From Thiotrichales bacterium (GTDB taxonomy: Bacteria > Pseudomonadota > Gammaproteobacteria > Thiomicrospirales > Thiomicrospiraceae), in the NCBI GenBank assembly GCA_016936535.1, contig JAFGXP010000032.1:1-47607 (forward strand): 47,607 nt of DNA. The letters run 5' to 3'. This document shows, piece after piece, positions 1 through 17,211 of the stretch (position 1 is the stretch's first letter; each line of letters opens with the position of its first letter). A program made the position numbers and the translations under genes. The notes under the pieces were generated by a model. That model worked only from the letters and a program-made list of their open reading frames with translations. It was not told the origin of the DNA and made no database searches.

Positions 1-344
1 GGGCTGGCAGTAAAGCTTTTGAGCACAATATTGCGATTACTGTCGTTCACGCTTAAGGCACAGGGTAAGGCACCCAAACCAACTTGTCCGCTCCAGGTAC
101 CATTGGCGTTGGTGGTCACGCCGGTTGTAAAGCCTGAGCCATCGCTGCACTTTGCCGTTACTTGGCCGCCAACAATCGGAGCGCCCACTGCTGCCGTTCC
201 GTTTAAGTCGGCAGTTTGCTCGGCAGGGGGTGGTTCGTTGTTGTTATCTGAGTTACTGCTGCTGGATGAGAGTAAGTCAAGATCGCAACCGCTGAGTAGC
301 ATGGCCGTGCCTAAAGCTAAGCCAAGTGAATAGGGGGTTTTCAT
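1..344 (-). CDS. Lipoprotein, C-terminally truncated by window edge
   Basis: The reading frame starts at ATG 344 and runs off the left edge without a stop, so only about the first 114 residues are visible. A GGAGG ribosome site lies just upstream. The N-terminus (MKTPYSLGLALGTAMLLSGC) is a type II signal peptide with lipobox L-S-G-C, so the mature protein should be lipid-anchored at Cys20. A Ser/Asn-rich linker follows, then a beta-rich stretch of the kind found in carboxypeptidase-regulatory-like or Ig-like repeats (G-A-P-I-V-G-G, then T-N-A-N-G-T-W). The function is unknown. It has the same orientation as the sugar transferase upstream, but a gap of about 145 bases separates them. Confidence 0.75.
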   Translation of the reverse strand, partial: MKTPYSLGLALGTAMLLSGCDLDLLSSSSSNSDNNNEPPPAEQTADLNGTAAVGAPIVGGQVTAKCSDGSGFTTGVTTNANGTWSGQVGLGALPCALSVNDSNRNIVLKSFTAS

Positions 345-489
345 AGGTGCCTCCGCAAATACTTGTTATCTTTAAGAAAGTCTTACAAGACTTTGAATAA
401 AGTAGCACTGAATTGCCAAGACAGATAATCAAGATAATTTTTTCGTTATAAATTTTTTTAGATTAAGCCTTTTGCGTATTAAGCTAGGT

Positions 490-1872
490 TTAAAACGCAT
501 TTTCATCATTAAAGATACGAATTAAGGTGAGTAGAAAGATTTTAATGTCCAGCCAAAGACTCCATGTGTTGATGTAGTGCAGATCCATTGCGACCCGTTT
601 TTGCATCTTTTCAAGTGTGTCGGTTGGGCCGCGTAGGCCGTTGATTTGTGCTAAGCCAGTGATGCCGGGTTTGACGGAATGGCGCTGCATATATTTGGGC
701 ACTAACTTTCGGTATTGTTCATTGTGCGCCACGGCATGTGGACGCGGCCCAACCACCGACATATTGCCCAGCAGGACATTGAGAAATTGCGGTAATTCAT
801 CCAAGCTGCTTTTGCGGAGCCAGCGCCCAAACTGGGTGACCCGTGGATCATGGCGAGTGGCTTGCATAACCTGCTGGTTTTCCAGTGTGGTCATGCTGCG
901 AAATTTATAGACCTCAATGGCTTTACCATTTAATCCGTAACGGGTTTGCTTAAACAGAACCGGCCCATTAGAAGTCAAACGAATGGTCAGTCCAATTAAC
1001 AGCAGTAAGGGGCTGGTTAGAATCAATACGATGCTGGCAATTAGCAAGTCTTCGAGCCGTTTAAGCATCCGATTGCTCAGGGAATGCATGGGGGTGTGAT
1101 AGACGCTGAGAATGGGCATGCCTTGTAACTCTTGCCACTGTGTATGCAGTAAGTCAAACGAAAACAGGCTTGGTACAAATTTGACGCTGATGGTGCTGTC
1201 CGCTAGGGTTTCCAGTACCGTTTGAATCCGGCTTTGCGCGCTGAGAGGAAGGCAGATATAGGCTTGATGGCAATGACGCTGTTGCAGTTTTTCAGGGAGG
1301 TTTTCTAAATCTCCCAGAACTGCTACGCCTTCTAGCATTTGTCCATGCAGCGCTGCGTTGTCATCTAAAAAGCCCAGTAGGCGATAACCGAGTAATGGCG
1401 ACGCTTGCAGTTTTCGCGCCAACTCTTGGCCAGTTTGTCCGGCACCAAGAATCATGACATTGGTTTGTAAACGCTCTCGGCTGCGTAACCAAAATAAGAG
1501 TTGTTGCACCAGAAAACGATAGGCATAAAAAATGAACGGTGGTAGCAGAACAAAACCGATCAGTTGCGCAACACTATGCTCGGGCACAAAGGAGAAGAGG
1601 GTGCCGCTGGCCACTAAAAAAGGCAAACTGAGGAACCAAGATTTCATAATCAGTTTGCCGGTATTGTTCAGCTGTTGGCCGCGCCATTGACGATAGAGGC
1701 CGCTAAATTGCGCAATAACAACAAAGCTGGTGCCAGCCAGCGCCAAAAAAAGCCAGTAGTCAGGATGTTGCAGCAAAGTGTTTTGGCCCAGTAGGGCAAA
1801 CGCCACCAAGGTGGGCACCAATAAATCCAGAAGGCGGTGAAACCAGTAAAAAAGATGGAGGTCTTGTTGCAT
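490..1872 (-). CDS. Undecaprenyl-phosphate sugar phosphotransferase (WcaJ/WbaP-like)
   Basis: This 460-residue protein has the classic layout of exopolysaccharide-initiating polyprenyl glycosylphosphotransferases: about four to five N-terminal membrane segments (residues 10-130), a nucleotide-binding-like middle domain (about 140-215, with G-A-G-Q-T-G), another membrane segment near 280, and a C-terminal sugar-transferase domain. Family motifs are visible: V-Y-K-F-R-S-M, S-S-L-D-E-L-P-Q-F-L-N-V-L and V-V-G-P-R-P-H. Such enzymes transfer a hexose-1-phosphate from a UDP-sugar to undecaprenyl phosphate at the inner membrane, the first step of exopolysaccharide or capsule building. Length is normal. 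No other glycan gene is visible; the rest of a cluster could lie left of the window. The sugar cannot be told from sequence. Confidence 0.9.
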   Translation of the reverse strand: MQQDLHLFYWFHRLLDLLVPTLVAFALLGQNTLLQHPDYWLFLALAGTSFVVIAQFSGLYRQWRGQQLNNTGKLIMKSWFLSLPFLVASGTLFSFVPEHSVAQLIGFVLLPPFIFYAYRFLVQQLLFWLRSRERLQTNVMILGAGQTGQELARKLQASPLLGYRLLGFLDDNAALHGQMLEGVAVLGDLENLPEKLQQRHCHQAYICLPLSAQSRIQTVLETLADSTISVKFVPSLFSFDLLHTQWQELQGMPILSVYHTPMHSLSNRMLKRLEDLLIASIVLILTSPLLLLIGLTIRLTSNGPVLFKQTRYGLNGKAIEVYKFRSMTTLENQQVMQATRHDPRVTQFGRWLRKSSLDELPQFLNVLLGNMSVVGPRPHAVAHNEQYRKLVPKYMQRHSVKPGITGLAQINGLRGPTDTLEKMQKRVAMDLHYINTWSLWLDIKIFLLTLIRIFNDENAF

Positions 1873-2231
1873 GAGTCAGCGGCCTAACAAATCGTACGGA
1901 AATTGTACGCAAAAGCGCGGTAAAAAATAAGCAAAAACCGCTAATCCTCAAGCCGAGCTCATCCTATCCGCTTTTTAAAGAAATCCAATTTAAGCACAAG
2001 CTGCGGCAGAAAGGGTTTTAAAACCGTCTGCTCAAGCGTTGAATCGTAAAAGAAACCCGATGGGGTTCAAAAAGCCCCTTGTCTCTTTGCTTTGCGAATA
2101 CCCGAAACCAATTGTTGTGATCTGAACCCTTAGATCGTCCTAAGGGCGTTAATAAGTCATTCATTTACTTAGTGAAATGCTTGGATTAAGATAAAACTCT
2201 TTGCGGATGCTAGGGTTAAGAAGGAGGGGAG
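1873..2231. other. Intergenic region between divergent genes, with inverted repeat
   Basis: This 359-base spacer separates the leftward sugar transferase from the rightward SprA-like gene, so it should hold both promoters. The clearest structure is a perfect 7-bp inverted repeat at 2127-2146 (CCCTTAG, 6-base spacer, CTAAGGG), about 85 bases upstream of the SprA-like start. It has no T-run, so an operator or leader hairpin is more likely than a terminator. I saw no convincing sigma-70 promoter and no gene. Confidence 0.5.
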
Positions 2232-3026
2232 ATGACAGAGATTGCAGTTTCTTCTCGTGCGGTAAGTTCAGTCTATAGCGTGCTTCCTGTGCGCTTGCCG
2301 CAAACAGAGCTGCCCACCGAGCCTTCCCGCACTATTCCAGTCTTAAGTCGGATGGAACCTGCGAGCACCAACTCGCCTTCGTTTCCCTCAGTCGTTGAAC
2401 CGCAAACCTCCGAGCAATCAGGGCCTAAACCGCAACAAGCCGCGCAACAGATTGAGCAGGTATTGAACCAGTTACGCGCCCGTGATCGGGAGGTACGGGC
2501 GCATGAGATGGCGCATCTTTCGGTTGCTGGGCCTTATGCGACCGGCATGAGCTTTAGCTACCAGACCGGACCAGATGGCAAACGTTATGCGATTGGCGGT
2601 GAGGTAGGAATTGATACGGCGCCTGTAGCCAATGATCCCGAAGCTACGGTGCAGAAAGCGAGAGTGATTCAGAGTGCGGCCTTAGCGCCCGCTGAGCCAT
2701 CGGCTCAAGATTATCGAGTGGCTGCCGCGGCGGCGCAGATGATGGCGCAAGCAAGGATCGAACTTGCCGAGCAAAACCGTTCCGAGCCAGCAAATGACGA
2801 GCGGGTTGGTGAACCCTTAGCAAAGACAGCGCAAAATTCAGAACCTTCTCGCACGGAAAACCGAACCAATGAACCTACCGGTGCTTTTTCGAGCGCGGTT
2901 GAAGCCCCAGAATCTAGTAGTTTGTTAGCCGCTGCAGACTCGGCTATGTTTAAGAGTGTGGCGCAATCGTCTGCATTAGCGGAGGAGAGAAGATCGTTTG
3001 AGCTGCGCCTGCGATTGCAGGCTTAG
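2232..3026 (+). CDS. SprA-like putative zinc metalloprotease
   Basis: The start is well supported by an AAGGAGGGG site directly before the ATG. The 264-residue protein has a disordered, Pro/Ser/Glu-rich N-terminus (about 1-75), a conserved core (about 85-180) and a second low-complexity tail. The core carries R-A-H-E-M-A-H, an HExxH zinc-metalloprotease motif, followed by S-Y-Q-T-G-P-D-G-K-R-Y-A-I-G-G-E-V and an Ala-rich helix (V-A-A-A-A-A-Q-M-M-A-Q-A), the pattern of the SprA-related family. No signal peptide or membrane segment is evident. Its substrate is unknown; family members are annotated only as putative metalloproteases. It converges with the ArsR regulator gene, 30 bases away. Confidence 0.75.
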   Translation: MTEIAVSSRAVSSVYSVLPVRLPQTELPTEPSRTIPVLSRMEPASTNSPSFPSVVEPQTSEQSGPKPQQAAQQIEQVLNQLRARDREVRAHEMAHLSVAGPYATGMSFSYQTGPDGKRYAIGGEVGIDTAPVANDPEATVQKARVIQSAALAPAEPSAQDYRVAAAAAQMMAQARIELAEQNRSEPANDERVGEPLAKTAQNSEPSRTENRTNEPTGAFSSAVEAPESSSLLAAADSAMFKSVAQSSALAEERRSFELRLRLQA

Positions 3027-3056
3027 AAATAGAATAGCCAAACGCGTCGAGAGAGT

Positions 3057-3377
3057 TTAGTGCTGTTCGGTGGTGCAGAAGGTATGCTGCATTGCAGTCA
3101 TTAAGGTCAAAATATTGTGATCACGAACCTTGCAAAGAATTTTGCTGCCTTCGCGGCGCGAGGTAATGATCTCTTTTTCGCGCAAAATATCAATATGTTG
3201 CGAAATATTACTTTGGGTGGTTCCCACCTGTTTGACAATTTCCATTACCGGCAACTCGCGCTCACCAATTACGCACAGAATTTTTAAGCGTAATGGGTGC
3301 CCCATCGCTTTTAAGGCTTTGGAGGCTTTGTTGATATTGTCTTCTTTCATTTCAAAAGGGACTGGTTCTGCACTCAT
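3057..3377 (-). CDS. ArsR-family regulator with SqrR/BigR-like cysteine pair
   Basis: This 106-residue winged-helix protein begins its core with K-A-M-G-H-P-L-R-L-K-I-L-C and has a recognition helix with T-T-Q-S-N-I-S-Q-H-I, both typical of ArsR regulators. The metal-site motif ELCVCDL of arsenic sensors is absent. Instead Cys35 sits in helix 2 and Cys101 near the C-terminus, 66 residues apart. That spacing and placement match the redox cysteines of persulfide sensors SqrR and BigR as I recall them (41/107 and 42/108). Cys82 is extra. In a sulfur oxidiser a role in sensing sulfide-derived persulfides is plausible but inferred. No sqr or sulfur dioxygenase gene is adjacent, so targets would be elsewhere. 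Confidence 0.88.
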   Translation of the reverse strand: MSAEPVPFEMKEDNINKASKALKAMGHPLRLKILCVIGERELPVMEIVKQVGTTQSNISQHIDILREKEIITSRREGSKILCKVRDHNILTLMTAMQHTFCTTEQH

Positions 3378-3399
3378 CTTTTCTCAAATCACTATATTA

Positions 3400-3420
3400 G
3401 TATATTATTCAAATTTGGTT
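3400..3420 (-). promoter_or_regulatory. AT-rich repeat upstream of arsR-type gene, possible operator
   Basis: Just upstream of the ArsR start the plus strand reads TATATTA-G-TATATTA, two identical heptamers one base apart, in a strongly AT-rich stretch. ArsR proteins commonly repress their own gene by binding AT-rich imperfect palindromes overlapping the promoter, so this is the most likely operator or -10 region. No binding data exist here, and AT-richness alone could produce such a repeat. Confidence 0.35.
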
Positions 3421-3674
3421 AGATTCTATAGAAGTTGCCGGCATAAGTCATCTAAAGGAAATTTTATAACTTGCTAATAAATTTTTGTGCCAAGTGCTGA
3501 ATCTGGCTTGAAACAGGCTGACGAAAGCTTTATAAATGCAAGAATACCGAAAAAAACCGTGCCAGCCGTGTACACTTTACGAACACTGTTTTAACTGTTT
3601 TAAACCGCTTTGCAGGTCTCTTTTTGGCCAACAAGGTCAATGGATAACTTGCCATAATGATTACGGAGAGCCAT

Positions 3675-5006
3675 GTGGCTATCGCAAAAATGAAAAAATT
3701 AATGTGGGTCAGCTCAGGGGTGGTACTGGGTGCTGCCATTGCCTTTGGAAGTGCGGTCTGGGCAGATCGTGAGGAGACGCAAGTATCTTCAGAAAATTCC
3801 GGTATTCCGTTGCAGGAGTTGCGAGCTTTTGTTGAAGTTTATGAGCGCATTTCAACGGATTACGTTGATCAAGTGGATGATAAGAAACTGTTGGAAGGCG
3901 CGATCAGTGGCATGCTTTCGAGTTTGGATCCCCATTCTTCGTATTTACCGCCGGTGGATGCCAAAGAGATGGAAGAACACACGCGAGGTGAATTTGGCGG
4001 CTTGGGCATGGAAGTCGGCATGGAAGACGGGTTTGTAAAAGTGATTTCGCCGATTGACGACACCCCTGCGCAAAAAGCCGGAATTCGGGCTGGCGATTTG
4101 ATCATCAAGCTGGGTTCTGAACCGGTTAAAGGCAAAACGCTTGGCGATGCGGTCAAAATTATGCGCGGTAAGCCGGGCACCAAACTTGAGCTAACTGTAG
4201 TGCGTAAAGGCGAAGATGCGCCATTGACTATTGAATTGACGCGCGATGTGATTAAAGTGCGCAGTGTGCGGCAGCGAATGCTTAAAGACGATATCGGTTA
4301 TGTTCGCATCAGCCAGTTCCAAGTGCGTACCGGCCAGGATTTGGCTAAGGCACTGGAAACCTTGGAAAAAGACAACGGTAAGCCACTTTCGGGTTTGGTT
4401 CTGGATTTACGCAATAACCCTGGTGGGGTTTTAGGGGCGGCGGTTGAAGTCTCGGATGCTTTCTTAGAGAAGGGGCTGATTGTTTATACCGAAGGCCGCG
4501 TGAATAACTCGCAAATGCGTTTTGAGGCCGAGAACGGTGACCTGATGAATGGCAAGCCGATTGTCGTTTTGGTTAATGAAGGTTCGGCCTCGGCTTCGGA
4601 AATCGTTTCGGGTGCTTTGCAAGATCAAAAGCGTGCGATTATTGCTGGCCGCGATACTTTTGGTAAGGGATCTGTTCAAACCTTGATGCAGCTTAATAAT
4701 GGTGCGGCGATGAAAATTACCACCGCACGTTATTTCACCCCTGCCGGTCGTTCTATTCAGGCTGAAGGCATTAAGCCGGACGTAGAAATCGATCTACTGA
4801 AAGTGGAAAAAGTTGAAAAAAGTGAATTGGGTAATGTGAAAGAGAAAGATCTTTCTGGCCATTTAGATAATGGTCAAGAAGCGGAAAACGCGGGTGATAA
4901 AGCGAAAGTAACGCAAGAAACCGTTGAACTGCTGGATAAAGATTTTGAACTTTCGGAAGCCATGCGTATTGTGAAAACGATGATTTTGGCTCAGCAACTC
5001 AAATAA
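3675..5006 (+). CDS. ctpA: S41 carboxyl-terminal processing protease (CtpA type)
   Basis: I chose GTG 3675 because GGAGAG lies 4-5 bases upstream; an in-frame ATG at 3657 has no ribosome site, and ATG 3690 is also possible. The 443-residue protein has an N-terminal membrane or signal segment (about 7-30), a region with S-L-D-P-H-S-S-Y-L, a PDZ domain (about 95-180) and the S41 catalytic domain. The Ser-Lys dyad is intact: Ser306 in N-E-G-S-A-S-A-S-E-I and Lys331 in T-F-G-K-G-S-V-Q, 25 residues apart as in the family. CtpA proteases act in the periplasm on C-termini of envelope proteins, including cell-wall hydrolases. A strong terminator follows, so it is transcribed alone or last. Confidence 0.92.
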   Translation: MAIAKMKKLMWVSSGVVLGAAIAFGSAVWADREETQVSSENSGIPLQELRAFVEVYERISTDYVDQVDDKKLLEGAISGMLSSLDPHSSYLPPVDAKEMEEHTRGEFGGLGMEVGMEDGFVKVISPIDDTPAQKAGIRAGDLIIKLGSEPVKGKTLGDAVKIMRGKPGTKLELTVVRKGEDAPLTIELTRDVIKVRSVRQRMLKDDIGYVRISQFQVRTGQDLAKALETLEKDNGKPLSGLVLDLRNNPGGVLGAAVEVSDAFLEKGLIVYTEGRVNNSQMRFEAENGDLMNGKPIVVLVNEGSASASEIVSGALQDQKRAIIAGRDTFGKGSVQTLMQLNNGAAMKITTARYFTPAGRSIQAEGIKPDVEIDLLKVEKVEKSELGNVKEKDLSGHLDNGQEAENAGDKAKVTQETVELLDKDFELSEAMRIVKTMILAQQLK

Positions 5007-5761: not shown

Positions 5762-8700
5762 CTATCCAGCGGATTGGTTATCCGCTTTACCATAACCCCC
5801 GCCACCCGGGGTGTGCATCCACAACTCATCGCCGACACTAAAACGTTGGCAGAAGGTGCTGTTTAGCCATTGTACGGTGCGCGCGCCCTTACGTTTACGA
5901 CCATGCTGCCCCAGTTTGCCCGGTTCGCCACCGGCCATCCCATAGGGGGCGGCCTTGCGTCGGTTGCTTAACACCGATACGGTCATCGGCGCCAGAAATT
6001 CGATATGCCGTTCACAACCATCGCCGCCATGAAAACGTCCTCGTCCGCCGCTGTGTCGGCGAATCGCAAAGCGTTTTAGCCTGACAGGATAACGCTGTTC
6101 TAAAATCTCGGGATCGGTCAATCGCGAGTTGGTCATATGGCTGTGCACGGCACTGGCACCGTGATAGTGTGGGCCTGCGCCCGTGCCGCCACATAGGGTC
6201 TCGTAGTATTGAAACTGCTCATCGCCAAAAGTAAGGTTATTCATAGTGCCTTGTGAGGCCGCTTGAACCTGCAAAGCGCCATAGAGGGTATCGGTAATGA
6301 CTTGCGATGTTTCAACATTGCCGGCGACCACGGCGGCCGGATATTTGGGGTTGAGCAAACAGCCCTCTGGCACAATCAATTTGATTGGCCGCAAGAAACC
6401 GTCGTTAAGCGGAATGGCTTGTTGAACCAAGGTGCGGAGCACATAGAGAGTGGCGGCGCGGGTAATGGCCAGTGGCGCATTAAAATTGGTGGTCTGTTGT
6501 GGGCTGGTACCGGTAAAGTTAAAGGTAGCGCCCAGCTTATCCGCATCGAGCGTAATTTTGACCGTGACTTGTGTGCCTTGATCGGTCAAATACCGGAAAC
6601 GCCCTTCGTGCAGTTGGGGCAGGAGCGCTTGCAGGCTCTGCTCGGCATGCTGCAAACTGAATTCCATATATGCACAAACTTCTTGCACATCGGCTTGCTG
6701 ACACAAGGCTTGCAGGCCCAAAATACCGGCTTGATTGGCGGCGAGTTGGGCTTGAAGGTCGTGCAAATTCTGGTTGAAATTACGCACAGGATAAGGTGCT
6801 TGAGTCAACGCTTGTTGTAGGCTTTTGTGCAGCAACTTGCCTTGCTCAACGACCTTAAGGCAATCGAGAATGACGCCTTCTTGTTCAAGTAAACGACTTT
6901 CGGCGGGCATTGAGCCAGGGGTGATGCCGCCAATATCGGCATGGTGTCCGCGTGATGCGACATAAAAACGTAAAATCCCTTCCACAAAAACTGGCGAGAT
7001 AACGGTAATATCTGGCAGATGCGTGCCCCCAGCAAACGGATTGTTCAGGGCATAGCTGTCGCCTTCTTGCAGTGTTTTGCCGTGGCGTTTGATGAGTGTT
7101 TTTACGGCTTCTCCCATGGATCCGAGATGCACAGGCACGTGTGGCGCATTGGCAATCAAATTCCCTTGATCGTCAAACAGGGCGCAGCTGAAATCGAGGC
7201 GCTCTTTGATGTTGACCGAATGGGCCGTTTTCGCCAAAACCGCTCCCATCTGTTTGGCAAGGCTCATAAAACGTTGATGATAGAGGCCCAGCAGTACGGA
7301 ATCGACTTGACGTAGATTGTGGTTTTTGTGTGTTTTACGGCTTGGGTCCAGTTCAAGCAGCAGATGCCCCTCTGCGCATTGGGTCGCTTGCCAATTGGGC
7401 GGTAAGTAGACCGTGCCGGTGTTCTCTAAAATGAGAGCAGGCCCGTTGAGGATTTGCTCAACCGCCAAGTGTTCACGGGCATAGACTGCGGTCTTATGCC
7501 AAACACCATCGCAGAAGGTTTGGGTTTGTTCGAGTGGCTCGGCAGGCTGAGAGCAATGAGGTGTCAGCGTCTGCGCTTGCGATGCCGGCCCCAAGGCTTC
7601 AACGGTGATGCTGTGAATGTGAATGGGTTGATGGTCGTGGATAAAACCAAATTGACGAAGATGCTCTGCTTCAAACATTTGCGTATAGTGCACAGGACGC
7701 AGAGTTTCCTGCCAATCCAAATCCAGTGTAGTGTCACTGCCCAAATAGTTAAGGTGTAAGGTCGTTCGGTAGGCCGCAGGCTCTAAGCCTTGGGCTCGTA
7801 AGGCTTTTTTCACTCGGCGTCGCTGCTGATAAAGCTCAGGGTCGAGGCTGGGCAGTGCTTCCAGCGCTTGTTGATAGGTGCGCGTTTCCATGGCGCTTTG
7901 CTGAGCTAAACCAATGCCATAGGCTGAGAGCACGCCCGCATAGGGATGCAACAGGATTTGTTGGATGCCGAGTTTTTCGGCAACAAAACAAGCGTGCTGG
8001 CCGCCGGCCCCGCCAAAGCTCACCAGCGTATGATCGCGCAGATCGTAGCCGCGCTGGGTAGAGATGGTTTGCACCGCTTGTGCCATGGTCTCGTTGGCAA
8101 TCTGCAGCGCGCCTTCGGCCAAGGCTTCAGCAGTGAGTTTAAGCGTGCGGGCTAAATCGCTAAACGCCCGCTCCACCGCCGCTTTATCTAAGGGTTGCTG
8201 ACCACTTTCGCCAAAGACAGCCGGAAAATGCGCGGCTTGAATGCGCCCCAGCAGCAGATTGGCATCGGTCAGGGTCAAGGGGCCATTGAGTCGGTAGGCA
8301 AGCGGGCCAGGATTGGCACCGGCAGAGTGAGGTCCAACGGCAAGCGCGTCTAGCTGCGATTGAATAATCGAGCCTCCACCGGCCGCTACGGTATGAATAT
8401 CTAGCATTGGCACACGCAGTTCCACACCGGCGAGTTCACTTTCAAGGGTTCGCTGCAGTTCACCTGCATAATGACAGACATCGGTTGAGGTGCCGCCCAT
8501 ATCAAAGCCAATGATTTTTTCGATGCCCGCTAAGCGTGCGCAATGAATTGCGCCAATCATGCCACCGGCTGGCCCAGAGAGAATAGCATCCTTGCCACGA
8601 AAATGGTCGGCTTGACACAGGCCACCGTGCGATTGCATCAGTTGTAAATCTACACCGGGCAGTTCGGCTCGCACTTGCTGAATATAGCGTTGCAATACGG

Positions 8701-9352
8701 GATTAAGATAGGCGTCCACAACGGTGGTGCGGCCGCGAGCAATGAATTTAATGAGTCCTGAGGTTTTGGAGGAAGTTGCAATCTCGGTAAAGCCCACCGC
8801 CTCAGCCCAATGTGCGACCTGTTTTTCGTGTTCGGGGTTAAGGTAGCTGTGCATCAACACAATGGCTAAAGCTTCAATGCCTTGTTGTTTGAGTGCTTGC
8901 AGGTGTTCCAGAGTGATGCTTTCTTCAAGTGCTTCAATTTCTTGACCTTTGGCATCCAGACGTCCGGGAATTTCAATCACTGTTTGGTACAGTGGGGCCG
9001 CCGTTTTTACTTCCAGTGCAAAAAGTTCTGAGCGATGTTGGTAACCAATTTGCAAGGCATCGGCAAATCCTTGGTTTGTCACCAGAGCGACCTTAGCGCC
9101 TTTGCGCTCTAAAAGGGCATTGGTGGCAACAGTCGTGCCCAATTTTACGCTGGCAATGCGGTCTGCGGGAATGGGCGCCTTGGCAGGCAGTTGCAGAAAA
9201 TGTCGAATCCCCATTAGCACGGCATCCTGGTTGGCTTCGCGTACTTCGGACAGCAGCTTATGGGTATGCAGCTGGCCATCTGGGTCTTTTGCAATGATAT
9301 CTGTAAAAGTGCCGCCGCGATCTATCCAAAATTCCCACTGTTTTCCGCTCAT
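5762..9352 (-). CDS. oplaH: 5-oxoprolinase, fused hydantoinase A/B type
   Basis: The best start is ATG 9352, with AGAGAG 8 bases upstream; GTG 9361 is three codons earlier. The 1196-residue protein joins a HyuA half (ATP-binding; F-W-I-D-R-G-G-T-F-T-D at the N-terminus, G-F-D-M-G-G-T-S-T-D-V near 290, F-G-G-A-G-G-Q-H-A near 455) to a HyuB half (from about 690; N-N-P-F-A-G-G-T-H-L-P-D, A-G-N-V-E-T-S-Q, and the glycine-rich C-terminus H-T-P-G-G-G-G-Y-G). Full-length fusions of this kind are ATP-dependent 5-oxoprolinases, which open L-5-oxoproline to glutamate and so salvage a damage product of glutamine and glutathione metabolism. It is cytosolic. No transporter or pxpABC gene is adjacent, and it looks monocistronic. 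Confidence 0.9.
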   Translation of the reverse strand: MSGKQWEFWIDRGGTFTDIIAKDPDGQLHTHKLLSEVREANQDAVLMGIRHFLQLPAKAPIPADRIASVKLGTTVATNALLERKGAKVALVTNQGFADALQIGYQHRSELFALEVKTAAPLYQTVIEIPGRLDAKGQEIEALEESITLEHLQALKQQGIEALAIVLMHSYLNPEHEKQVAHWAEAVGFTEIATSSKTSGLIKFIARGRTTVVDAYLNPVLQRYIQQVRAELPGVDLQLMQSHGGLCQADHFRGKDAILSGPAGGMIGAIHCARLAGIEKIIGFDMGGTSTDVCHYAGELQRTLESELAGVELRVPMLDIHTVAAGGGSIIQSQLDALAVGPHSAGANPGPLAYRLNGPLTLTDANLLLGRIQAAHFPAVFGESGQQPLDKAAVERAFSDLARTLKLTAEALAEGALQIANETMAQAVQTISTQRGYDLRDHTLVSFGGAGGQHACFVAEKLGIQQILLHPYAGVLSAYGIGLAQQSAMETRTYQQALEALPSLDPELYQQRRRVKKALRAQGLEPAAYRTTLHLNYLGSDTTLDLDWQETLRPVHYTQMFEAEHLRQFGFIHDHQPIHIHSITVEALGPASQAQTLTPHCSQPAEPLEQTQTFCDGVWHKTAVYAREHLAVEQILNGPALILENTGTVYLPPNWQATQCAEGHLLLELDPSRKTHKNHNLRQVDSVLLGLYHQRFMSLAKQMGAVLAKTAHSVNIKERLDFSCALFDDQGNLIANAPHVPVHLGSMGEAVKTLIKRHGKTLQEGDSYALNNPFAGGTHLPDITVISPVFVEGILRFYVASRGHHADIGGITPGSMPAESRLLEQEGVILDCLKVVEQGKLLHKSLQQALTQAPYPVRNFNQNLHDLQAQLAANQAGILGLQALCQQADVQEVCAYMEFSLQHAEQSLQALLPQLHEGRFRYLTDQGTQVTVKITLDADKLGATFNFTGTSPQQTTNFNAPLAITRAATLYVLRTLVQQAIPLNDGFLRPIKLIVPEGCLLNPKYPAAVVAGNVETSQVITDTLYGALQVQAASQGTMNNLTFGDEQFQYYETLCGGTGAGPHYHGASAVHSHMTNSRLTDPEILEQRYPVRLKRFAIRRHSGGRGRFHGGDGCERHIEFLAPMTVSVLSNRRKAAPYGMAGGEPGKLGQHGRKRKGARTVQWLNSTFCQRFSVGDELWMHTPGGGGYGKADNQSAG

Positions 9353-9518
9353 TATTTTCACTCTCTAGACAAAATAAATGGAAATTCTGCACATAAATAA
9401 TCGCAATGACAAGCCTATTGGGAAAAATTGCTGAGCGCGGTTATGATAGAAAGCCATTTTTTACACCATTTTGCCAACGATTTGCCAAAGATTTGCCACA
9501 GTGCGCAGAGGAGTTTTC

Positions 9519-11425: not shown

Positions 11426-12234
11426 AAACGCTTGCTTGTCGAAATCTGGGTGTGCAGCGGGGCGCAGCACTTTTGCTTGACGGTGTGAACGCTGATTTCT
11501 TACCTGAACGGATTAGCGTGATTTTAGGGCAAAATGGCGCGGGAAAATCGACGCTACTGCAAGCGCTGGCGAAAAATCAAGCCCTGAGTGCGGGTGAGAT
11601 TCTCTGGCACGGGCAGCCGCTTGTCCAATGGAGTTGGTCGGATTTAGCCAAGATGCGCGCGCTCGTCGAGCAGCAAACCCCGTTGCCATTTGCCTTTAGT
11701 GTGCGGCAGTTGGTCAGTTTGGGTTTAGAGGTGCAGCGAGCAGAAATGGGGCCAAGCGGTCCGCTGTTACCGGCTGCTTTTCAAGGTTATTTGCAAGAGA
11801 TTTTACGGGTGTGCGATCTTTTAGCGTTGAGTGAGCGCTCGGTACTAACGCTGTCGGGCGGTGAGTTAAAACGTGCGCATTTGGCGCGCGCGCTGGCGCA
11901 AATTTGGCCACTGGATGCCAGTGGTCAGTTCCATGGCAAGTGGCTGCTGCTGGATGAGTGGAATGTGGCCTTAGACGTGCATCATCAGCAATGCTTTGCT
12001 GTGCTGTTGCGCCAGTGGTGTGCTCAAGGGCTAGGCGTCATTATGGTGTTGCACGATTTACCGCTCGCGATGCAATTGGCCGATGAGGTGTTGTTGCTGA
12101 AACAGGGCCGCGTATTAGCACAAGGCACCGCGGCGGAAATCTGGCAACCTTTATTGTTGCAAGAGGCCTTGCAAACCCGTCTTGAAGCCTTTACCCATGC
12201 CGATGGATCAACGCTTTTCCTGCCTAAACTTTAG
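11422..12234 (+). CDS. ABC transporter ATPase, FecE/HmuV-like
   Basis: The 270-residue protein begins at an ATGA overlap with the permease stop, as expected for coupled subunits. It has Walker A G-Q-N-G-A-G-K-S-T (about residue 36), a Q-loop, the signature L-S-G-G-E (about 149), Walker B W-L-L-L-D-E and the switch histidine in V-L-H-D-L. The residues after Walker B read W-N-V-A-L-D rather than the usual P-T-S-A-L-D; the catalytic glutamate is kept. The overall pattern fits HmuV/FecE-like importers. Its 3' end overlaps the convergent ATP-grasp gene by 11 bases, leaving no room for a dedicated terminator. Confidence 0.9.
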   Translation: MKTLACRNLGVQRGAALLLDGVNADFLPERISVILGQNGAGKSTLLQALAKNQALSAGEILWHGQPLVQWSWSDLAKMRALVEQQTPLPFAFSVRQLVSLGLEVQRAEMGPSGPLLPAAFQGYLQEILRVCDLLALSERSVLTLSGGELKRAHLARALAQIWPLDASGQFHGKWLLLDEWNVALDVHHQQCFAVLLRQWCAQGLGVIMVLHDLPLAMQLADEVLLLKQGRVLAQGTAAEIWQPLLLQEALQTRLEAFTHADGSTLFLPKL

Positions 12235-13132
12235 GGTAACGTTCTTGCATTAGTTCGGTGAGGACAAAATGACAATAAGCGTTCGCCATATTCAGTCCTA
12301 AGCCTTCGTGGGCGCCTTTAAACCCACCAAATGCCGACACTTCAAAGCAAACGGGGCCGGCCTCGGTCTCAGCCATATCAACCGTACAAAAGCTTAGCTT
12401 GAATTGTGCTTGTGCGCGCTGTGCCAGTTCAATGGTTTGTGCGCTGGGCTCGGCGCGGGCGTAATTGCCTCCGGCTTCGATGGTGGTGTTCCAGCTGTTG
12501 CCGTGTGCGATGCGGGCATAAGCACCTTGATACACACCGTTGAGAAACACCAAACCTAAATCGTGGCCAGGCAGTTGCAATTTTTGCTGAATGTAGAAAA
12601 AACGGTGTTTAGCATAAAAGTTGCCGAGCTGCTCTCGCACCCGACTGTCACCGTCACCCGCGCGCAGCACTTGCATGCCGCGTGCTTTAGTTGAAAACAG
12701 CGGTTTAAGAATAGCCTCTCCGTAGTGATGCACGGCTTTAAGTGCGGCTTCTGGGTCTTCGGTCATACAGGTTTTGGGCATGGGAATTTGCGCGCGGGCC
12801 AAGCTTACGCTGCCGCTCATACGGTTCACCAGACGAATGATTTCACTGGGTTTGGAATAGACGCGTACCCCGCAGCTTTCCATCAAACGCAGCATTTCTA
12901 GGCGATCCAGTACATTTGGACTATAGGTAGCGGAAATTTTTTTGATAATCACCGCGTCGAGTTCACACAGATTTTGCCCTTGATAATGCAAGCAGGGCGG
13001 CGAGAGTTCCGCCGCCACTTTGTGCAAATCAATCACCATTCTAAAGCCCGTAACCGCTGCGATTTCATCGGCCAAGATTTCAGTGGACCAGTTACCGGGC
13101 AACCCGACCACGGCAATTTTAAAAGGTTTCAC
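12224..13132 (-). CDS. RimK-like ATP-grasp enzyme, GAK-system type
   Basis: The gene starts at GTG 13132 with AAAGGA 9 bases upstream and overlaps the kinase gene stop by 14 bases. The 302-residue protein has an N-terminal substrate-binding half (about 1-105) and an ATP-grasp half: A-I-L-K-P-L-F-S-T-K-A-R-G-M holds the ATP-binding lysine and glycine-rich turn, and V-C-F-E-V-S-A-F-G-G-F-K-G replaces the metal-binding E-x-N of RimK. The sequence style matches ATP-grasp proteins named GAK-system in TIGRFAM-type annotation, from memory. ATP-grasp enzymes form amide or thioester bonds through acyl phosphates; the substrate is unknown. It is the last gene of a four-gene operon with an amphi-Trp protein, a kinase-like protein and a histidine phosphatase. 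Confidence 0.82.
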   Translation of the reverse strand: MKPFKIAVVGLPGNWSTEILADEIAAVTGFRMVIDLHKVAAELSPPCLHYQGQNLCELDAVIIKKISATYSPNVLDRLEMLRLMESCGVRVYSKPSEIIRLVNRMSGSVSLARAQIPMPKTCMTEDPEAALKAVHHYGEAILKPLFSTKARGMQVLRAGDGDSRVREQLGNFYAKHRFFYIQQKLQLPGHDLGLVFLNGVYQGAYARIAHGNSWNTTIEAGGNYARAEPSAQTIELAQRAQAQFKLSFCTVDMAETEAGPVCFEVSAFGGFKGAHEGLGLNMANAYCHFVLTELMQERYPKV

Positions 13133-14759
13133 GCAACAGTTCCTTTGGCAGCCTATAGGTGCTGTTATCTTTGGACTGATGAATCAAGTGCTCAAGCAGA
13201 TAACGTCCCTTAAAAAGCATGGATTTGGCGTGCTCTTTATCCAAGACAAAACGGGTTGAGCTGATATAAGAACGTGCCAGTCCTAAGGTCATCCGTTTGG
13301 CGTAGTCGTGATCTCGTTGGCTTTCGGCATAGTCGGCGCCAAAATCGTAAATTGCTTCCATGACCAAACGAATGCGTTGGCGAGTTTTCGGTTCAAAATA
13401 AGCCAGTCGATAAAACGAGACCATTAGCACCGAGAGATCTTGGGTGTAGTCTTGGTATTCCGAGCGATGAAGATCAACAAAGTTCACGCTGTCTTGTTCG
13501 GCGTTATAGAGAATGTTATCCACATTAAAATCGCCGTGAATATAGACCGCAAAAGGGGCTTGCAGTTCACTCTCAAGCATAGTGGCTTGTTGAATGAGTT
13601 TTTCCAATGAGACTTGTTGCGCTGTGCCGATGCGCAGCCCCTTGTCTTTGAGATTAAATTCGGGATGTACCGCATAGACGGCCGACAAGCGTTTTTGCAG
13701 TTGCGGCATAAAATTGGCCGCAATTCGTCGCGCTTGCACGGTCGTATGCCAAATCTCGCTGAGGGTGGAAAACAGGCGGTTAATTGCGGTTTGTAGGCGT
13801 TCACGCTCATCCAGCAGCAGGCTTTCAAAGGTTTCTCCACTGAGGTATTCAAACAAGAGTGCGGCCTTGTCACCTTGTTTTTGATAAGAGTAAACTTCCG
13901 GCGCAATGCCGGGAAACGCTTGATGCCAGCGTTCGATACCGAGTTTCTCATCGTGCAGTTTGTCTTTGCGCCCCTGTTTAAAGATGGCCAAGACCTGTGC
14001 TTCGGCTTCTTGCCCGGTTTGAACACTGGAAAGTGTGCAGCCAGATTTGGTTTCGCCCATTGAGTGAATGCGCAAATCTTGCGATGGCAGCTGTTGATTG
14101 AAGTCGCAGAGCGTGGCCTCTAAACTTTGATAGCGGTCAATTTGCATGAACTGTCCGAGCTTGGCGGAGAGCAGCCCCTCGCCCACCTTGAGCAGGGTGT
14201 TGCCCATAGATTGAATGTCGCGCACGATAAAACTGCACTGCAACAAGGCCGCTTGTTGTTCACAATTTTTCAGTTCCTGGCTATAGCGTTGCAACTGTTC
14301 ACGGCCGAGCTTATCGATTTGCCCTTGTAATTGACAAAGGTTGAGGGTTAGAGCCAGGTCTTCACTTTCCAATGCCGGCACAATCAAACTCAGTCCTCTG
14401 TTCAAGGTTTGCAAGGCTTGAGTGATGCGTTTTTTTTGTAACAGTTTGAGCGATTTGAGTTTTTGCAGTTCTTGACTCAGGCTGTTGAGTTGAAGCGAAA
14501 GATTCAGGAGTGAATAGGAGATATGTTCAAAACCTTGCAGCGGCAGTTGTTCACGGCCTTGACGCAGGCTGCTGTGAAACGAATGATTTAACAGGGATAG
14601 GTGAGCGTTTTCAATGTAATCCATACGCTCTTGGCTTTTAGCGAACAGGCTGGTATCTTGCCCAATTAAGCCGTCATAGACGGTTTGCAGCTGTTTCTGT
14701 AAGTCAATCAGCAGAAAACGCAGGCTGCTGTACACCTTGGAAAAATCGCGCATGGCCAT
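13119..14759 (-). CDS. PhoU-like / aminoglycoside-phosphotransferase-like fusion kinase
   Basis: The start is ATG 14759 with a GAGG site 11 bases upstream. The 546-residue protein divides in two. Residues 1-220 are all-helical, with two half-repeats; V-R-D-I-Q-S-M-G-N-T-L-L-K-V-G-E resembles the metal-binding helix of PhoU. Residues 240-546 form an APH/choline-kinase-like fold: Lys261 in A-I-F-K, catalytic loop H408-G-D410-x4-N415, and F-V-D429-L where the metal-binding Asp is expected. Catalytic residues therefore look complete. The substrate may be a small molecule or protein. Between the amphi-Trp and ATP-grasp genes it takes the place of the HprK-related kinase of described GAK systems, my inference. 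Confidence 0.78.
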   Translation of the reverse strand: MAMRDFSKVYSSLRFLLIDLQKQLQTVYDGLIGQDTSLFAKSQERMDYIENAHLSLLNHSFHSSLRQGREQLPLQGFEHISYSLLNLSLQLNSLSQELQKLKSLKLLQKKRITQALQTLNRGLSLIVPALESEDLALTLNLCQLQGQIDKLGREQLQRYSQELKNCEQQAALLQCSFIVRDIQSMGNTLLKVGEGLLSAKLGQFMQIDRYQSLEATLCDFNQQLPSQDLRIHSMGETKSGCTLSSVQTGQEAEAQVLAIFKQGRKDKLHDEKLGIERWHQAFPGIAPEVYSYQKQGDKAALLFEYLSGETFESLLLDERERLQTAINRLFSTLSEIWHTTVQARRIAANFMPQLQKRLSAVYAVHPEFNLKDKGLRIGTAQQVSLEKLIQQATMLESELQAPFAVYIHGDFNVDNILYNAEQDSVNFVDLHRSEYQDYTQDLSVLMVSFYRLAYFEPKTRQRIRLVMEAIYDFGADYAESQRDHDYAKRMTLGLARSYISSTRFVLDKEHAKSMLFKGRYLLEHLIHQSKDNSTYRLPKELLRETF

Positions 14760-14796
14760 GGTTCATCGCGCCTCTTGGCGGGCGAGCAGAGTGGGG

Positions 14797-15090
14797 TTAC
14801 TTTCCCTTTTTGCTCTTTTTGCTTTTAATAAACAGCGGAGCGCTGTCACTCTCATCCGTCAGTTGCGTGGTCCAGCTCAATTTAAGGCGCAGACTTTGTT
14901 CGCTTTTAGTTTTACTCGCGCGCAGATTCATCAGCGTGAGATGGTTGGGCGTAAGCGTTAAGGTCTCATCATCATCGGCCAGAATCACCTCGCCGTTTTC
15001 AATGCCCTGCAATAAAGCCCGAAGATAGTGAATCAACGAGTTGCGGTCTTGTAAGGATTCATGCACAAAGTATTCAGGTTTTTTTGCCAT
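14797..15090 (-). CDS. Amphi-Trp domain protein
   Basis: This 97-residue protein starts at ATG 15090, 8 bases after the phosphatase stop; the ribosome site is weak (TGAGAAAT), so coupling is likely. It shows the amphi-Trp pattern: L-Q-D-R-N-S-L-I-H-Y-L-R-A-L-L-Q-G-I-E-N-G, then A-D-D-D-E-T-L-T-L and the closing L-R-L-K-L-S-W. The Lys/Ser-rich tail is probably disordered. The domain is of unknown biochemical function; it has been noted beside ATP-grasp and kinase genes. It is likely cytosolic. The arrangement suggests it is a carrier or substrate protein acted on by its operon partners, which is inference. Confidence 0.8.
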   Translation of the reverse strand: MAKKPEYFVHESLQDRNSLIHYLRALLQGIENGEVILADDDETLTLTPNHLTLMNLRASKTKSEQSLRLKLSWTTQLTDESDSAPLFIKSKKSKKGK

Positions 15091-15098
15091 AGGATTTC

Positions 15099-15800
15099 TC
15101 AGTCTGGTTTTTCACTCTCTGGGCGTGCCTTCCATTTTCCGGCCAATAGCTCCAGTTCCAGCTGGTGGTTTTTGAGTCGGCATTCAAAAACCATCGGTTG
15201 AGCATAATGCATTGAGTAACGGCCAATTTCCGCTTTTTCCAACAAGCCAAGTTGATAGGCCGCGTAGCGGAAGGCCGCGGCATGCCCGACCATGACCACC
15301 AGCTGGTGATTATTCTGTGCCGAGGTAATCACTTGGGTCAAGGTTTGGCTTAAAAACTGGCTGAGGCGCGCTCCGGCTTGCATCAAAGATTCTGCGCCTT
15401 CAACCGGTAAACAAAAATCGGCATTGTGTTTCCAGTGCGGTGGTAAGGGCGCGCAGCGCGGATCTTGTTCCAGCACCGCTTCAATCTGTTGATGGCTTAA
15501 ATTGGCCAAACTGCCGACCGATCTTTCATTTAGGGCGCTGTGCGTACTGATTTGACAGTGGCCTTTCAGGTAGGGCTGCAACTCACGGGCAGTTTGCCAA
15601 GATCGCAATAAGGGCGAGCAAAAAAGCAGTGGGTGCAACTCCCATTCTTGGTGTTTAAGCAGTTTGCGCAGCGTTTTACCGGCCGTCTGACTTTGCTCAA
15701 TCCCTTCTGGAGTGAGCGAATAGGGCTGTAACGCACTCGGCGTTTGCGGCTGTTGGTGATAGTGCGCATGGCGCAAAAAAGCAAGATAACATCGTTTCAT
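15099..15800 (-). CDS. Histidine phosphatase (SixA/phosphoglycerate-mutase-like)
   Basis: The 233-residue protein starts at ATG 15800 (GTG 15803 is also open); no strong ribosome site is seen. It has the histidine phosphatase core: nucleophile in F-L-R10-H11-A, the second arginine in S-P-L-L-R-S-W-Q-T-A, the acid in V-E-G-A-E-S and the second histidine in M-V-G-H-A-A-A-F. The family removes phosphate through a phosphohistidine; members act on phosphohistidine proteins, sugar phosphates and nucleotides. It is the first gene of the amphi-Trp / kinase / ATP-grasp operon, suggesting that it reverses the kinase. The operon lies 121 bases after nrdB on the same strand, so read-through is possible. 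Confidence 0.85.
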   Translation of the reverse strand: MKRCYLAFLRHAHYHQQPQTPSALQPYSLTPEGIEQSQTAGKTLRKLLKHQEWELHPLLFCSPLLRSWQTARELQPYLKGHCQISTHSALNERSVGSLANLSHQQIEAVLEQDPRCAPLPPHWKHNADFCLPVEGAESLMQAGARLSQFLSQTLTQVITSAQNNHQLVVMVGHAAAFRYAAYQLGLLEKAEIGRYSMHYAQPMVFECRLKNHQLELELLAGKWKARPESEKPD

Positions 15801-15870
15801 CACATCAGTTTAGCGGCCGCATATGACAAAAGAGGTATCGACAGATGAAAGATTTGTGACGAGGGCGATA

Positions 15871-15894
15871 ACACCCAGCCGATGCGCTGGGTGT
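15871..15894 (-). other. GC-rich hairpin between nrdB and the phosphatase operon
   Basis: ACACCCAGC and GCTGGGTGT form a perfect 9-bp stem with a 6-base loop, 27 bases after the nrdB stop. No T-run follows on the minus strand, so it may be a 3' stabilising hairpin or a partial transcription barrier rather than a classical terminator. Confidence 0.5.
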
Positions 15895-15921
15895 GGACAT
15901 CAAGGAGCTAAAGCGAAGCGG

Positions 15922-17055
15922 TTAAAGCGAAAAGTCGTTGAAGTCGTTGGCATCGACTTTGGAATCGACTTGCCCTACTAGGTAAGAGCTGATTTCTGAT
16001 TCCTGGGGGGCAACCTGAACATTGTCCGATACCAGCCAGTTGTTCATCCAAGGCAGAGGATTGCTGCGGTTGGCAAAAATAGGGTCAAAATGCAGGGCTT
16101 TTATCCGAACATTGGTGATGTATTCAACATAATCTTTGAGAATACTGGCGTTTAAGCCAATCATCGAACCGTCTTTAAACAGATATTCGGCCCATTGTTT
16201 TTCCTGTTCGGCGGCTTGGCGGAAAATTTCAACCGCCGCTTCGCGCTGTTCTAAGGCAATTTGTGCCATCTCGGGATCGTCTTTACCTTCGGCCATCAGA
16301 TTGAGCATATTCTGGGTGCCAGACAAATGCAGTGCCTCATCACGAGCGATCAGCTTAATTACCTTGGCATTACCTTCCATTAAGGAGCGTTCGGCAAAAC
16401 TGAAGGAGCAAGCAAACGAAACATAAAAACGAATCGCCTCCAGTACATTGACTGAGACCAGCGTTAAATAGAGTTGGGTTTTAATGCGTTTGCGGAAATC
16501 GGCATTGGTTTGCAGATCGATTTGCTCGGCATACATTTTATTGGTTAAGGCAATCAATTCATCGTAATGCGAAGTCACTGCCAGCGCCCGCTGGGTAATT
16601 TCTTGGTTATCCACAATGTCATCAAAAACATCGGATGGATTGGTGAAAATATTGCGAATAATGTGGGTGTAAGAACGGCTATGAATGGTTTCTGAGAAGG
16701 CCCAAGTTTCAATCCAGGTTTCTAATTCTGGCAAGGAGACCAACGGCAAGAGCGCCACGTTTGGGCTGCGGCCTTGAACCGAATCCAATAGGGTTTGGTA
16801 TTTGATGTTACTGACAAAAATATGCTGTTCATTGGCTGGAAGTTGAGCATATTGTACTCTGTCTGTGGAAATATCAATCTCTTCCGGACGCCAGAAAAAC
16901 GAAAGCTGTTTTTCGATAAGCTTTTCAAAAAACGGATACTTCTGCTGGTCGTAGCGCGCGACATTGACGTTTTGGCCAAAAAACATCGGTTCTTTCATCG
17001 CATCACGATGGCCTTGGCAAAAGGTTGAATAGGTATTCTTTTCTTGGCAACTCAT
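15922..17055 (-). CDS. nrdB: Ribonucleotide reductase class Ia, beta subunit
   Basis: The ORF opens at 17067, but GAGG abuts that ATG, so ATG 17055 is preferred, giving 377 residues. It aligns closely by eye with E. coli NrdB (K-E-P-M-F-F-G-Q onwards). The diiron ligands and radical site are present: Asp91, Glu122, His125 and Tyr129 in R-S-Y-T-H-I-I-R-N (E. coli 84, 115, 118, 122), with the later E-A-I-R-F and R-D-E-A-L-H-L motifs. The C-terminal acidic tail ([10 protein letters not shown]) is the part that docks to NrdA. It supplies the tyrosyl radical for aerobic dNTP synthesis. NrdA is not in the window, so the pair is split or lies upstream beyond other genes. Confidence 0.96.
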
Positions 17056-17211
17056 ATCCGTTTGCATCCTCTAAAGCGGTTTGAGACTGAGAGGCGCGGC
17101 TCTCTTCTGGGTTTCCTTCTTAAAACAGGAAAAGGTCGTTATTCTACCGTTAATGAGAAAAACTAGCATTTAAATCTGGCTTGAAAACCCTGACCATAGT
17201 TTTGAACGCAT

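Follow-up and report, generated by a model that had tools for sequence, protein, structure and literature searches.

A reduced GAK cassette in a Thiotrichales bacterium, and a PhoU-APH fusion kinase as a core part of GAK loci

The stretch of DNA analysed here, contig JAFGXP010000032.1 of a Thiotrichales bacterium (Thiomicrospirales; Thiomicrospiraceae), positions 1 to 47,607 (47,607 nucleotides, hereafter the window), carries a compact operon of four open reading frames related to GAK, a system named in NCBIfam. All four lie on the minus strand and encode, from 5' to 3', a histidine phosphatase of branch 1 (15099..15803, 234 amino acids; PF00300 His_Phos_1, 64.4 bits against a cut-off of 21.7), an amphi-Trp protein with a lysine-rich tail (14797..15090, 97 amino acids; TIGR04354, 60.6 bits, cut-off 31), a kinase in which a PhoU domain is fused to an APH-fold domain (13119..14759, 546 amino acids; PF01636 APH, 38.8 bits, cut-off 23.2) and a GAK ATP-grasp enzyme of the RimK/MptN/LysX type (12224..13132, 302 amino acids; TIGR04356 grasp_GAK, 417.7 bits, cut-off 300). 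The first two genes are separated by 8 bases (15091..15098) and the second and third by 37, and the kinase and ATP-grasp frames overlap by 14 bases. An earlier, sequence-only reading had given a single strand, these junctions and these four identities, including the PhoU-like/APH-like nature of the kinase, and the coordinates, family models and structural comparisons bear it out on all these points.

The AlphaFold2 model of the kinase (56 aligned sequences; mean predicted local distance difference test score, pLDDT, 91.9) comprises two domains. The helical N-terminal domain (residues 1-203; 14151..14759, minus strand) is PhoU by both superposition and profile. Model residues 1-201 fit the Aquifex PhoU 1t72_G with Z 22.7 and a root mean square deviation (rmsd) of 2.3 over 200 residues, the Pseudomonas PhoU 4q25_A is fitted with Z 22.4 and rmsd 2.3 over 202, and a profile search retrieves the same Pseudomonas protein (4q25) at E 1.4e-10. 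The window kinase itself stays below the Pfam PhoU cut-off (18.0 vs 23.5 bits); its homologue at locus L092 (loci are designated L, genomes G) matches PF01895 with 49.4 bits (6.1e-13) and TIGR02135 at 2e-12. The C-terminal domain (residues 206-546; 13122..14144, minus strand) fits 9a5i_A, a 5-methylthioribose kinase, with Z 20.5 and rmsd 4.4 over 310 residues and is matched by APH(3')-Ia 4few_A with a Foldseek E of 6.7e-9, and its structural matches are mostly small-molecule kinases. The HxDxxxxN / D catalytic residues of APH-fold kinases are kept in its HGDFNVDN and VDL motifs, and K261, H408, D410, N415 and D429 are invariant in a 56-row alignment. No NCBIfam GAK model matched the kinase in the window or its homologues in L036, L063 and L092, and database records annotate it as a phosphotransferase or aminoglycoside phosphotransferase family protein. 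A role in aminoglycoside resistance was rejected on gene context and on the score against the NCBIfam model APH_3p, which at 45.9 bits is far under the cut-off of 205.

The gene neighbourhoods were compared in 62 genomes of the window's order, in class and phylum draws of 370 and 239 overlapping genomes, in the best 80 of 141 relatives from a search among named genomes (one planctomycete, Stieleria, and otherwise Gamma- and Alphaproteobacteria) and on two plasmids. Together these gave 136 loci with an ATP-grasp gene, or 114 once 22 duplicates, recognised by the last 200 ATP-grasp residues, had been set aside; L191, which has no ATP-grasp gene, was excluded. The order contributes 33 of the 114 (32 fetched stretches and the window) and other lineages 81, with GAK beyond Proteobacteria represented by one locus, L103 of Stieleria. 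In the order, the GAK ATP-grasp profile at E 1e-60 finds 33 of 62 genomes, 32 of them exceeding the model cut-off, and the kinase profile finds the same 33 and none of the other 29. The amphi-Trp and kinase genes precede the ATP-grasp gene in all 33 loci (in pieces in one broken copy, in genome G050), accompanied by HprK-related kinase B (HprK-B), presumably the K of GAK, in 28, by a metallophosphoesterase in 22, by the histidine phosphatase in 20 and by both phosphatases in 19.

Across the 114 loci the kinase is found in 109, HprK-B in 100, the amphi-Trp protein in 97, the metallophosphoesterase in 94 and the histidine phosphatase in 92, counts made with profiles built from the order's own loci, which distant family members may escape. 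The grouping of kinase and amphi-Trp protein with the ATP-grasp enzyme is not due to chance, because both lie near it in all 78 loci whose ATP-grasp gene is flanked on both sides by 6 kb of sequence or more; HprK-B is present in 75 of these. The kinase gene lies directly upstream of the ATP-grasp gene in 105 of the 114 loci, with an 8-base overlap in 54. Of the five loci without it, L098, L129, L137 and L139 have a contig end near at least one side, and in G145, the genome of L139, the kinase lies on a different contig; L181 has an incomplete ATP-grasp match and HprK-B. The class draw agrees: the ATP-grasp enzyme occurs in 14 of 370 genomes (13 over the cut-off) and the kinase in the same 14 and in G234, whose 4.6 kb contig, without ATP-grasp, holds a kinase fragment close to a GAK CofD-like gene; HprK-B occurs in 11, all within the 14, and CofD_rel_GAK in eight, including G234. 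GAK is thus patchily spread (14/370 class, 13/239 phylum and 33/62 order genomes by ATP-grasp). The neighbourhood survey proposed in the sequence-only reading finds the four families of the window together in 79 of the 114 loci, so the association reaches beyond this strain.

The fuller operon of the order consists of histidine phosphatase, PPP-like metallophosphoesterase, amphi-Trp protein, PhoU-APH kinase, ATP-grasp enzyme and HprK-B. The window genome (2.12 Mb, 97.5% complete, G000 in the class draw) gave no match to HprK-B (TIGR04355) at E 0.01 and none to the metallophosphoesterase with a single query from another genus (L036), a search without positive control, and it is not among the eight of 370 class genomes positive for CofD_rel_GAK (TIGR04357). 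The five nearest relatives (L038, L039, L044, L049 and L052) carry both HprK-B and the metallophosphoesterase in the locus. In three of them (L039, L044, L052) HprK-B lies between the ATP-grasp gene and the ABC gene, a place where in the window the ATP-grasp stop and the convergent ABC ATPase gene overlap by 11 bases (12224..12234); the 8-base junction of histidine phosphatase and amphi-Trp genes likewise corresponds to the site that holds the metallophosphoesterase in 19 of the 33 order loci. The four-gene form lacking both is found once in the 114 loci. Most simply, the two genes would have been lost: in the ATP-grasp tree the smallest well-supported set around the window has 22 rows, and loss of HprK-B is inferred because the window alone among them is without it, although its branch is long and its exact place in the tree unsure. 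As HprK-B was looked for and not found, the window is classed as a reduced variant rather than a full GAK member. That it is a reduced GAK cassette, with the PhoU-APH kinase as a core component and no substitute, we regard as close to certain.

Two claims of the sequence-only reading give way here. It had placed the APH-type kinase in the position of the HprK-related kinase, as a functional replacement in a variant GAK system, and the window genome, which has the one and yielded no match to the other, is what such an exchange would leave. However, the APH-fold kinase accompanies HprK-B in 99 of the 114 loci; replacement is therefore refuted as an account of its origin and is extremely improbable as an explanation of the locus. 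It had also treated the histidine phosphatase as an addition in this operon, whereas 92 of the 114 loci possess it.

HprK-B was likewise not found in G017 (Sulfurivirga), a member of the class draw in which the model matched 11 of 370 genomes, in G145, an assembly in 560 contigs, or in G016, G018, G019 and the Nitrincola-type genomes G427-G430, for which the search gave no matches, controls included, and so is no proof on its own. Amphi-Trp protein, kinase and ATP-grasp enzyme nevertheless persist together in the window, in G016-G019 and in the Nitrincola genomes G427 and G428, all three being retained in loci L063-L066, L113 and L120. On the ATP-grasp tree the presence of HprK-B changes seven times, at least five of these forced by well-supported branches, seven being an upper view since it includes contig-end cases and the mislabelled L190. 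The latter was scored as HprK-B-less in the tree, ratio and residue comparisons, as its contig does not show the gene, although its genome, G405, carries HprK-B on another contig.

An operon short of two genes might be a decaying remnant on its way out. The distance from outgroups to the window ATP-grasp enzyme is 1.89 times that to its sisters, compared with 0.89 to 1.26 for seven other genes (kinase 1.10, amphi-Trp 1.26, phosphatase 1.14, NrdB 0.89, RBN 1.13, FecCD 0.98 and the ABC gene 1.07, the last on only 89 columns), and a broken copy is present in G050, a related genome. In that copy (L067, 5366-8429) the kinase occupies two reading frames and contains a single in-frame stop, and the ATP-grasp frame too is split; sister genomes have intact copies. 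The window operon, on the other hand, has four open and packed frames with catalytic residues kept and a kinase evolving at an ordinary rate, and between its ATP-grasp gene and that of L039 protein-changing differences (pn 0.233) are far below silent ones (ps 0.68, near saturation). Decay is accordingly considered improbable. We read the fast ATP-grasp evolution as probable change under constraint rather than decay, because protein-changing differences are low and catalytic positions are kept.

The ratio of ATP-grasp to kinase distance places the window third of 103 loci and three Nitrincola-type loci seventh, eighth and 31st. A general acceleration of ATP-grasp evolution upon loss of HprK-B is not supported, as the three Sulfurivirga-type loci behave in the opposite way, ranking among the lowest four. 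Two ATP-grasp positions, T108 and T249, are threonine in all 94 compared loci with HprK-B; the window has S at the first and C at the second, and Nitrincola S/T and A, respectively. Both threonines persist in Sulfurivirga and L064, where HprK-B was likewise not found. Among distant HprK-B-positive pairs with at least two departures each, 0 of 164 share two positions, and a frequency-weighted simulation puts the coincidence at 0.077, for positions chosen after looking. The two residues may possibly be a contact or target of HprK-B, a suggestion offered as a lead only.

The ATP-grasp enzyme finds its next named family after grasp_GAK in MptN (142.1 bits, 1.9e-41, near full-length), below that family's cut-off of 350, and scores 96 against rimK_fam, where 143.4 is required. 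Its best solved relatives are LysX-type ligases (3vpd, E 3.5e-19; LysX 1uc8, E 4.2e-19). The metal/acceptor loop reads EVSAFGGF and hardly varies across 29 rows, with E264, V265, S266, A267, G269, G270, F271 and G273 invariant; the corresponding motif of RimK is EVNASPG, so that the loop separates the GAK enzyme from RimK.

The amphi-Trp protein is the sole match to its model in the window genome at E 0.001 and also passes PF20068 Amphi-Trp (29.6 bits, cut-off 27). Its structural model (mean pLDDT 83.0) has one helix followed by four strands (H16-32, E35-38, E43-46, E53-60, E65-72). An F-x-H-E-S-L-Q motif (15049..15069, minus strand), in which F8, H10 and Q14 are invariant and S12 and L13 nearly so across a 53-row alignment, is a possible modification or binding site. 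The C-terminal tails vary and are rich in lysine in many order members, with no conserved acidic end. A fold comparison gave nothing but weak matches, with Z no higher than 2.7 and HPr not among them, and a profile search of PDB sequences gave no convincing match.

Given LysX-type relatives of the ATP-grasp enzyme and an amphi-Trp gene near it in every full-context locus, the amphi-Trp protein could act as a carrier in the manner of LysW: the ATP-grasp enzyme would join an amino acid to it, the kinase would phosphorylate the tethered molecule and the phosphatase would edit. LysW has an acidic tail ending in a conserved glutamate, however, and the variable, often lysine-rich amphi-Trp tails do not resemble it, which makes a carrier distinctly unlikely. 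A switch is unlikely as well. Here HprK-B, the PhoU-APH kinase or both would phosphorylate the amphi-Trp protein, as a target similar to HPr, at S12 or H10, and the histidine phosphatase together with the PPP-like enzyme would remove the phosphate. The conserved motif would suit such a target, in these loci a relative of HprK occurs alongside several phosphatases, and the metallophosphoesterase weakly matches PPP-type protein phosphatases (2z72, E 0.0011; 5vjv, E 0.015). But the motif is kept in the window strain, which lacks HprK-B, and L064, also without HprK-B, has valine at position 12. The HprK-B profile, when compared with PDB sequences, gave P-loop matches to ABC transporters only.

In the histidine phosphatase R11, H12, R67, E93 and H174 are invariant across 24 rows. 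It falls under the cut-offs of both CobC (36.1 vs 162.9 bits) and SixA (15.5 vs 74.5). A CobC-like role in cobalamin salvage, prompted by the CobC match and the neighbouring transporter, was rejected because the phosphatase occurs in so many GAK loci and scores so far under the CobC cut-off.

Further families join GAK outside the order. Homologues of a SixA-Nudix protein are found in 45 of the 114 loci, Nudix proteins in 32 and CofD-like proteins in 24, all within the 81 loci from outside the order and none in its 33, as counted with profiles from single seed proteins that distant members may escape. The SixA-Nudix protein is confirmed as a fusion in L092, L105 and L095, and the L103 copy showed the Nudix half only. 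CHAD-type genes adjoin GAK in nine loci (L085, L090, L124, L174, L176, L186, L189, L103 and L144; identity confirmed by Pfam in L103 and L124), followed in seven of them by a ParA-like ATPase gene, and a link of these neighbours to polyphosphate granules is possible. Pst genes adjoin the cluster in Ketobacter L091, which has PstC, PstA, PstB and a stand-alone PhoU immediately upstream (2-4907), and in Stieleria L103, which has PstS, PstC and PstA immediately downstream (13698-16871); used as queries, the three Stieleria Pst proteins gave matches in only two loci.

These neighbours, together with the PhoU fold of the kinase, argue for a phosphate or polyphosphate module, in which PhoU would sense phosphate status and the enzymes would synthesise or break down a signal or polymer rich in phosphate. 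In PMC8003754, CHAD is described as binding polyphosphate, and Nudix and histidine phosphatase genes as often found after ppk. The numbers are small, however, with raw counts of two loci for Pst genes and nine of 114 for CHAD. No polyphosphate kinase-like family was seen, by eye, among the nine neighbour families common to at least three ATP-grasp clades, and a phosphate module leaves the ATP-grasp enzyme and the amphi-Trp protein without a part. It is a strong rival all the same, if on balance a rather unlikely one.

The explanation preferred as a whole, at somewhat less than an even chance, is a reduced GAK cassette working in a metabolite kinase-ligase pathway. The underlying mechanism is put forward tentatively, by analogy: the kinase would phosphorylate a metabolite, the ATP-grasp enzyme would add an amine to it and the phosphatase would limit or reverse the pathway. 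In such a scheme the PhoU domain may sense or dock, thereby gating the APH-fold kinase, which would place a phosphate on a hydroxyl of the metabolite; action on a small molecule is suggested because most structural neighbours of the kinase act on one. The ATP-grasp enzyme would then make an acyl phosphate and couple the metabolite to an amino acid or another amine. According to PMC8141765, amide formation via an acyl phosphate is the rule for most of the ATP-grasp superfamily, and MptN adds glutamate to a coenzyme. The amphi-Trp protein might bind or present the substrate, and the histidine phosphatase would take the phosphate off. Where present, the CofD-like protein might add a phospho-linked piece, as CofD transfers a phospho-acid in F420 synthesis (PMC8498797), and HprK-B might add a second phosphorylation.

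Several observations weigh against this pathway. All roles in it, and the metabolite itself, are putative. A CofD-type pathway is not complete here, as no CofD-like gene was seen near GAK in the 33 order loci and CofD_rel_GAK was not found in the window genome or in G042, G053 and G017, the other GAK genomes of the window's family in the class draw, the G042 locus having the other six GAK genes despite this. The PhoU, CHAD and Pst associations speak for phosphate no less than for a coenzyme. Fructosamine-3-kinase and lexapeptide LxmK, whose targets we take to be proteins or peptides, are also among the structural matches of the kinase, and the loop of the ATP-grasp enzyme differs from that of the RimK type. 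On a broader view, GAK could be an unrecognised pathway with a PhoU-gated kinase, making a phosphorylated, amino-acylated coenzyme-like or signal metabolite tied to phosphate status, with amphi-Trp protein, PhoU-kinase and ATP-grasp enzyme as its minimal engine and HprK-B as a dispensable second input, as the window strain, Sulfurivirga and Nitrincola suggest; this is a speculative possibility, on the doubtful side.

Upstream of the window operon lies a ribonucleotide reductase small-subunit gene (15922-17067), also present in many order relatives (PF00268 match in the homologue of L038), which looks like inherited synteny. At 5762-9361 the window encodes a 1199-residue hydantoinase/oxoprolinase-type protein (PF02538, PF01968, PF05378), homologues of which lie near GAK in other order loci. 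Other neighbour genes of the operon we take to belong to a FecCD/ABC-type transporter. Scans for promoters and terminators gave four and six sites, about as in shuffled sequences (3.3 and 5.9). Six GAK proteins matched none of the PADLOC families at 0.001, and for lack of any such match a role in anti-phage defence was rejected.

A second gene order occurs in L088, L107 and L185, where ATP-grasp, histidine phosphatase and metallophosphoesterase genes come first and the kinase directly precedes HprK-B, with L184 intermediate. GAK cassettes also occur on Rhodobacterales plasmids (L154, L155; 5 of 72,556 plasmid records). The annotation of the Qingshengfaniella plasmid runs CofD-like, NUDIX, phosphotransferase, GAK ATP-grasp, HprK-related kinase B, histidine phosphatase, metallophosphoesterase and amphi-Trp, and Tritonibacter has the same arrangement minus CofD-like and NUDIX within the stretch examined.

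In the part of the matches examined in the open-licence PMC literature, no paper on GAK function was found. GAK itself is already named in NCBIfam; what is added here is the PhoU-APH fusion kinase as an overlooked core part and the window strain as a reduced form. Since the PhoU-kinase is as constant in GAK as the ATP-grasp enzyme, biochemical tests that omit it would be incomplete, and the strains without HprK-B reveal the smallest gene set that persists.

Compared with known systems, the window is closest to GAK as modelled in NCBIfam (TIGR04356 ATP-grasp, TIGR04354 amphi-Trp, TIGR04355 HprK-B, TIGR04357 CofD-like): its ATP-grasp and amphi-Trp proteins pass the cut-offs and its neighbourhood is like that of other GAK loci, but its genome yields neither HprK-B nor CofD_rel_GAK. 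The GAK ATP-grasp enzyme resembles the MptN, RimK and LysX ligases by profile and solved structures, and differs from them in scoring far under their cut-offs and in its EVSAFGGF loop; from the LysX-LysW pair the system is set apart by an amphi-Trp protein without the C-terminal glutamate of the carrier. The histidine phosphatase shares superfamily and catalytic histidine with SixA, CobC and phosphoglycerate mutase, yet scores far below the SixA and CobC family cut-offs. The kinase has the fold and catalytic residues of APH(3') and 5-methylthioribose kinase but, unlike these, is fused to PhoU; in the 370-genome class draw and the 62 order genomes it is confined to genomes bearing GAK genes, again unlike APH(3'). 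Its N-terminal half, finally, has the same fold as the PhoU protein, from which it differs in being joined to a kinase and in sitting with GAK genes, outside a Pst operon.

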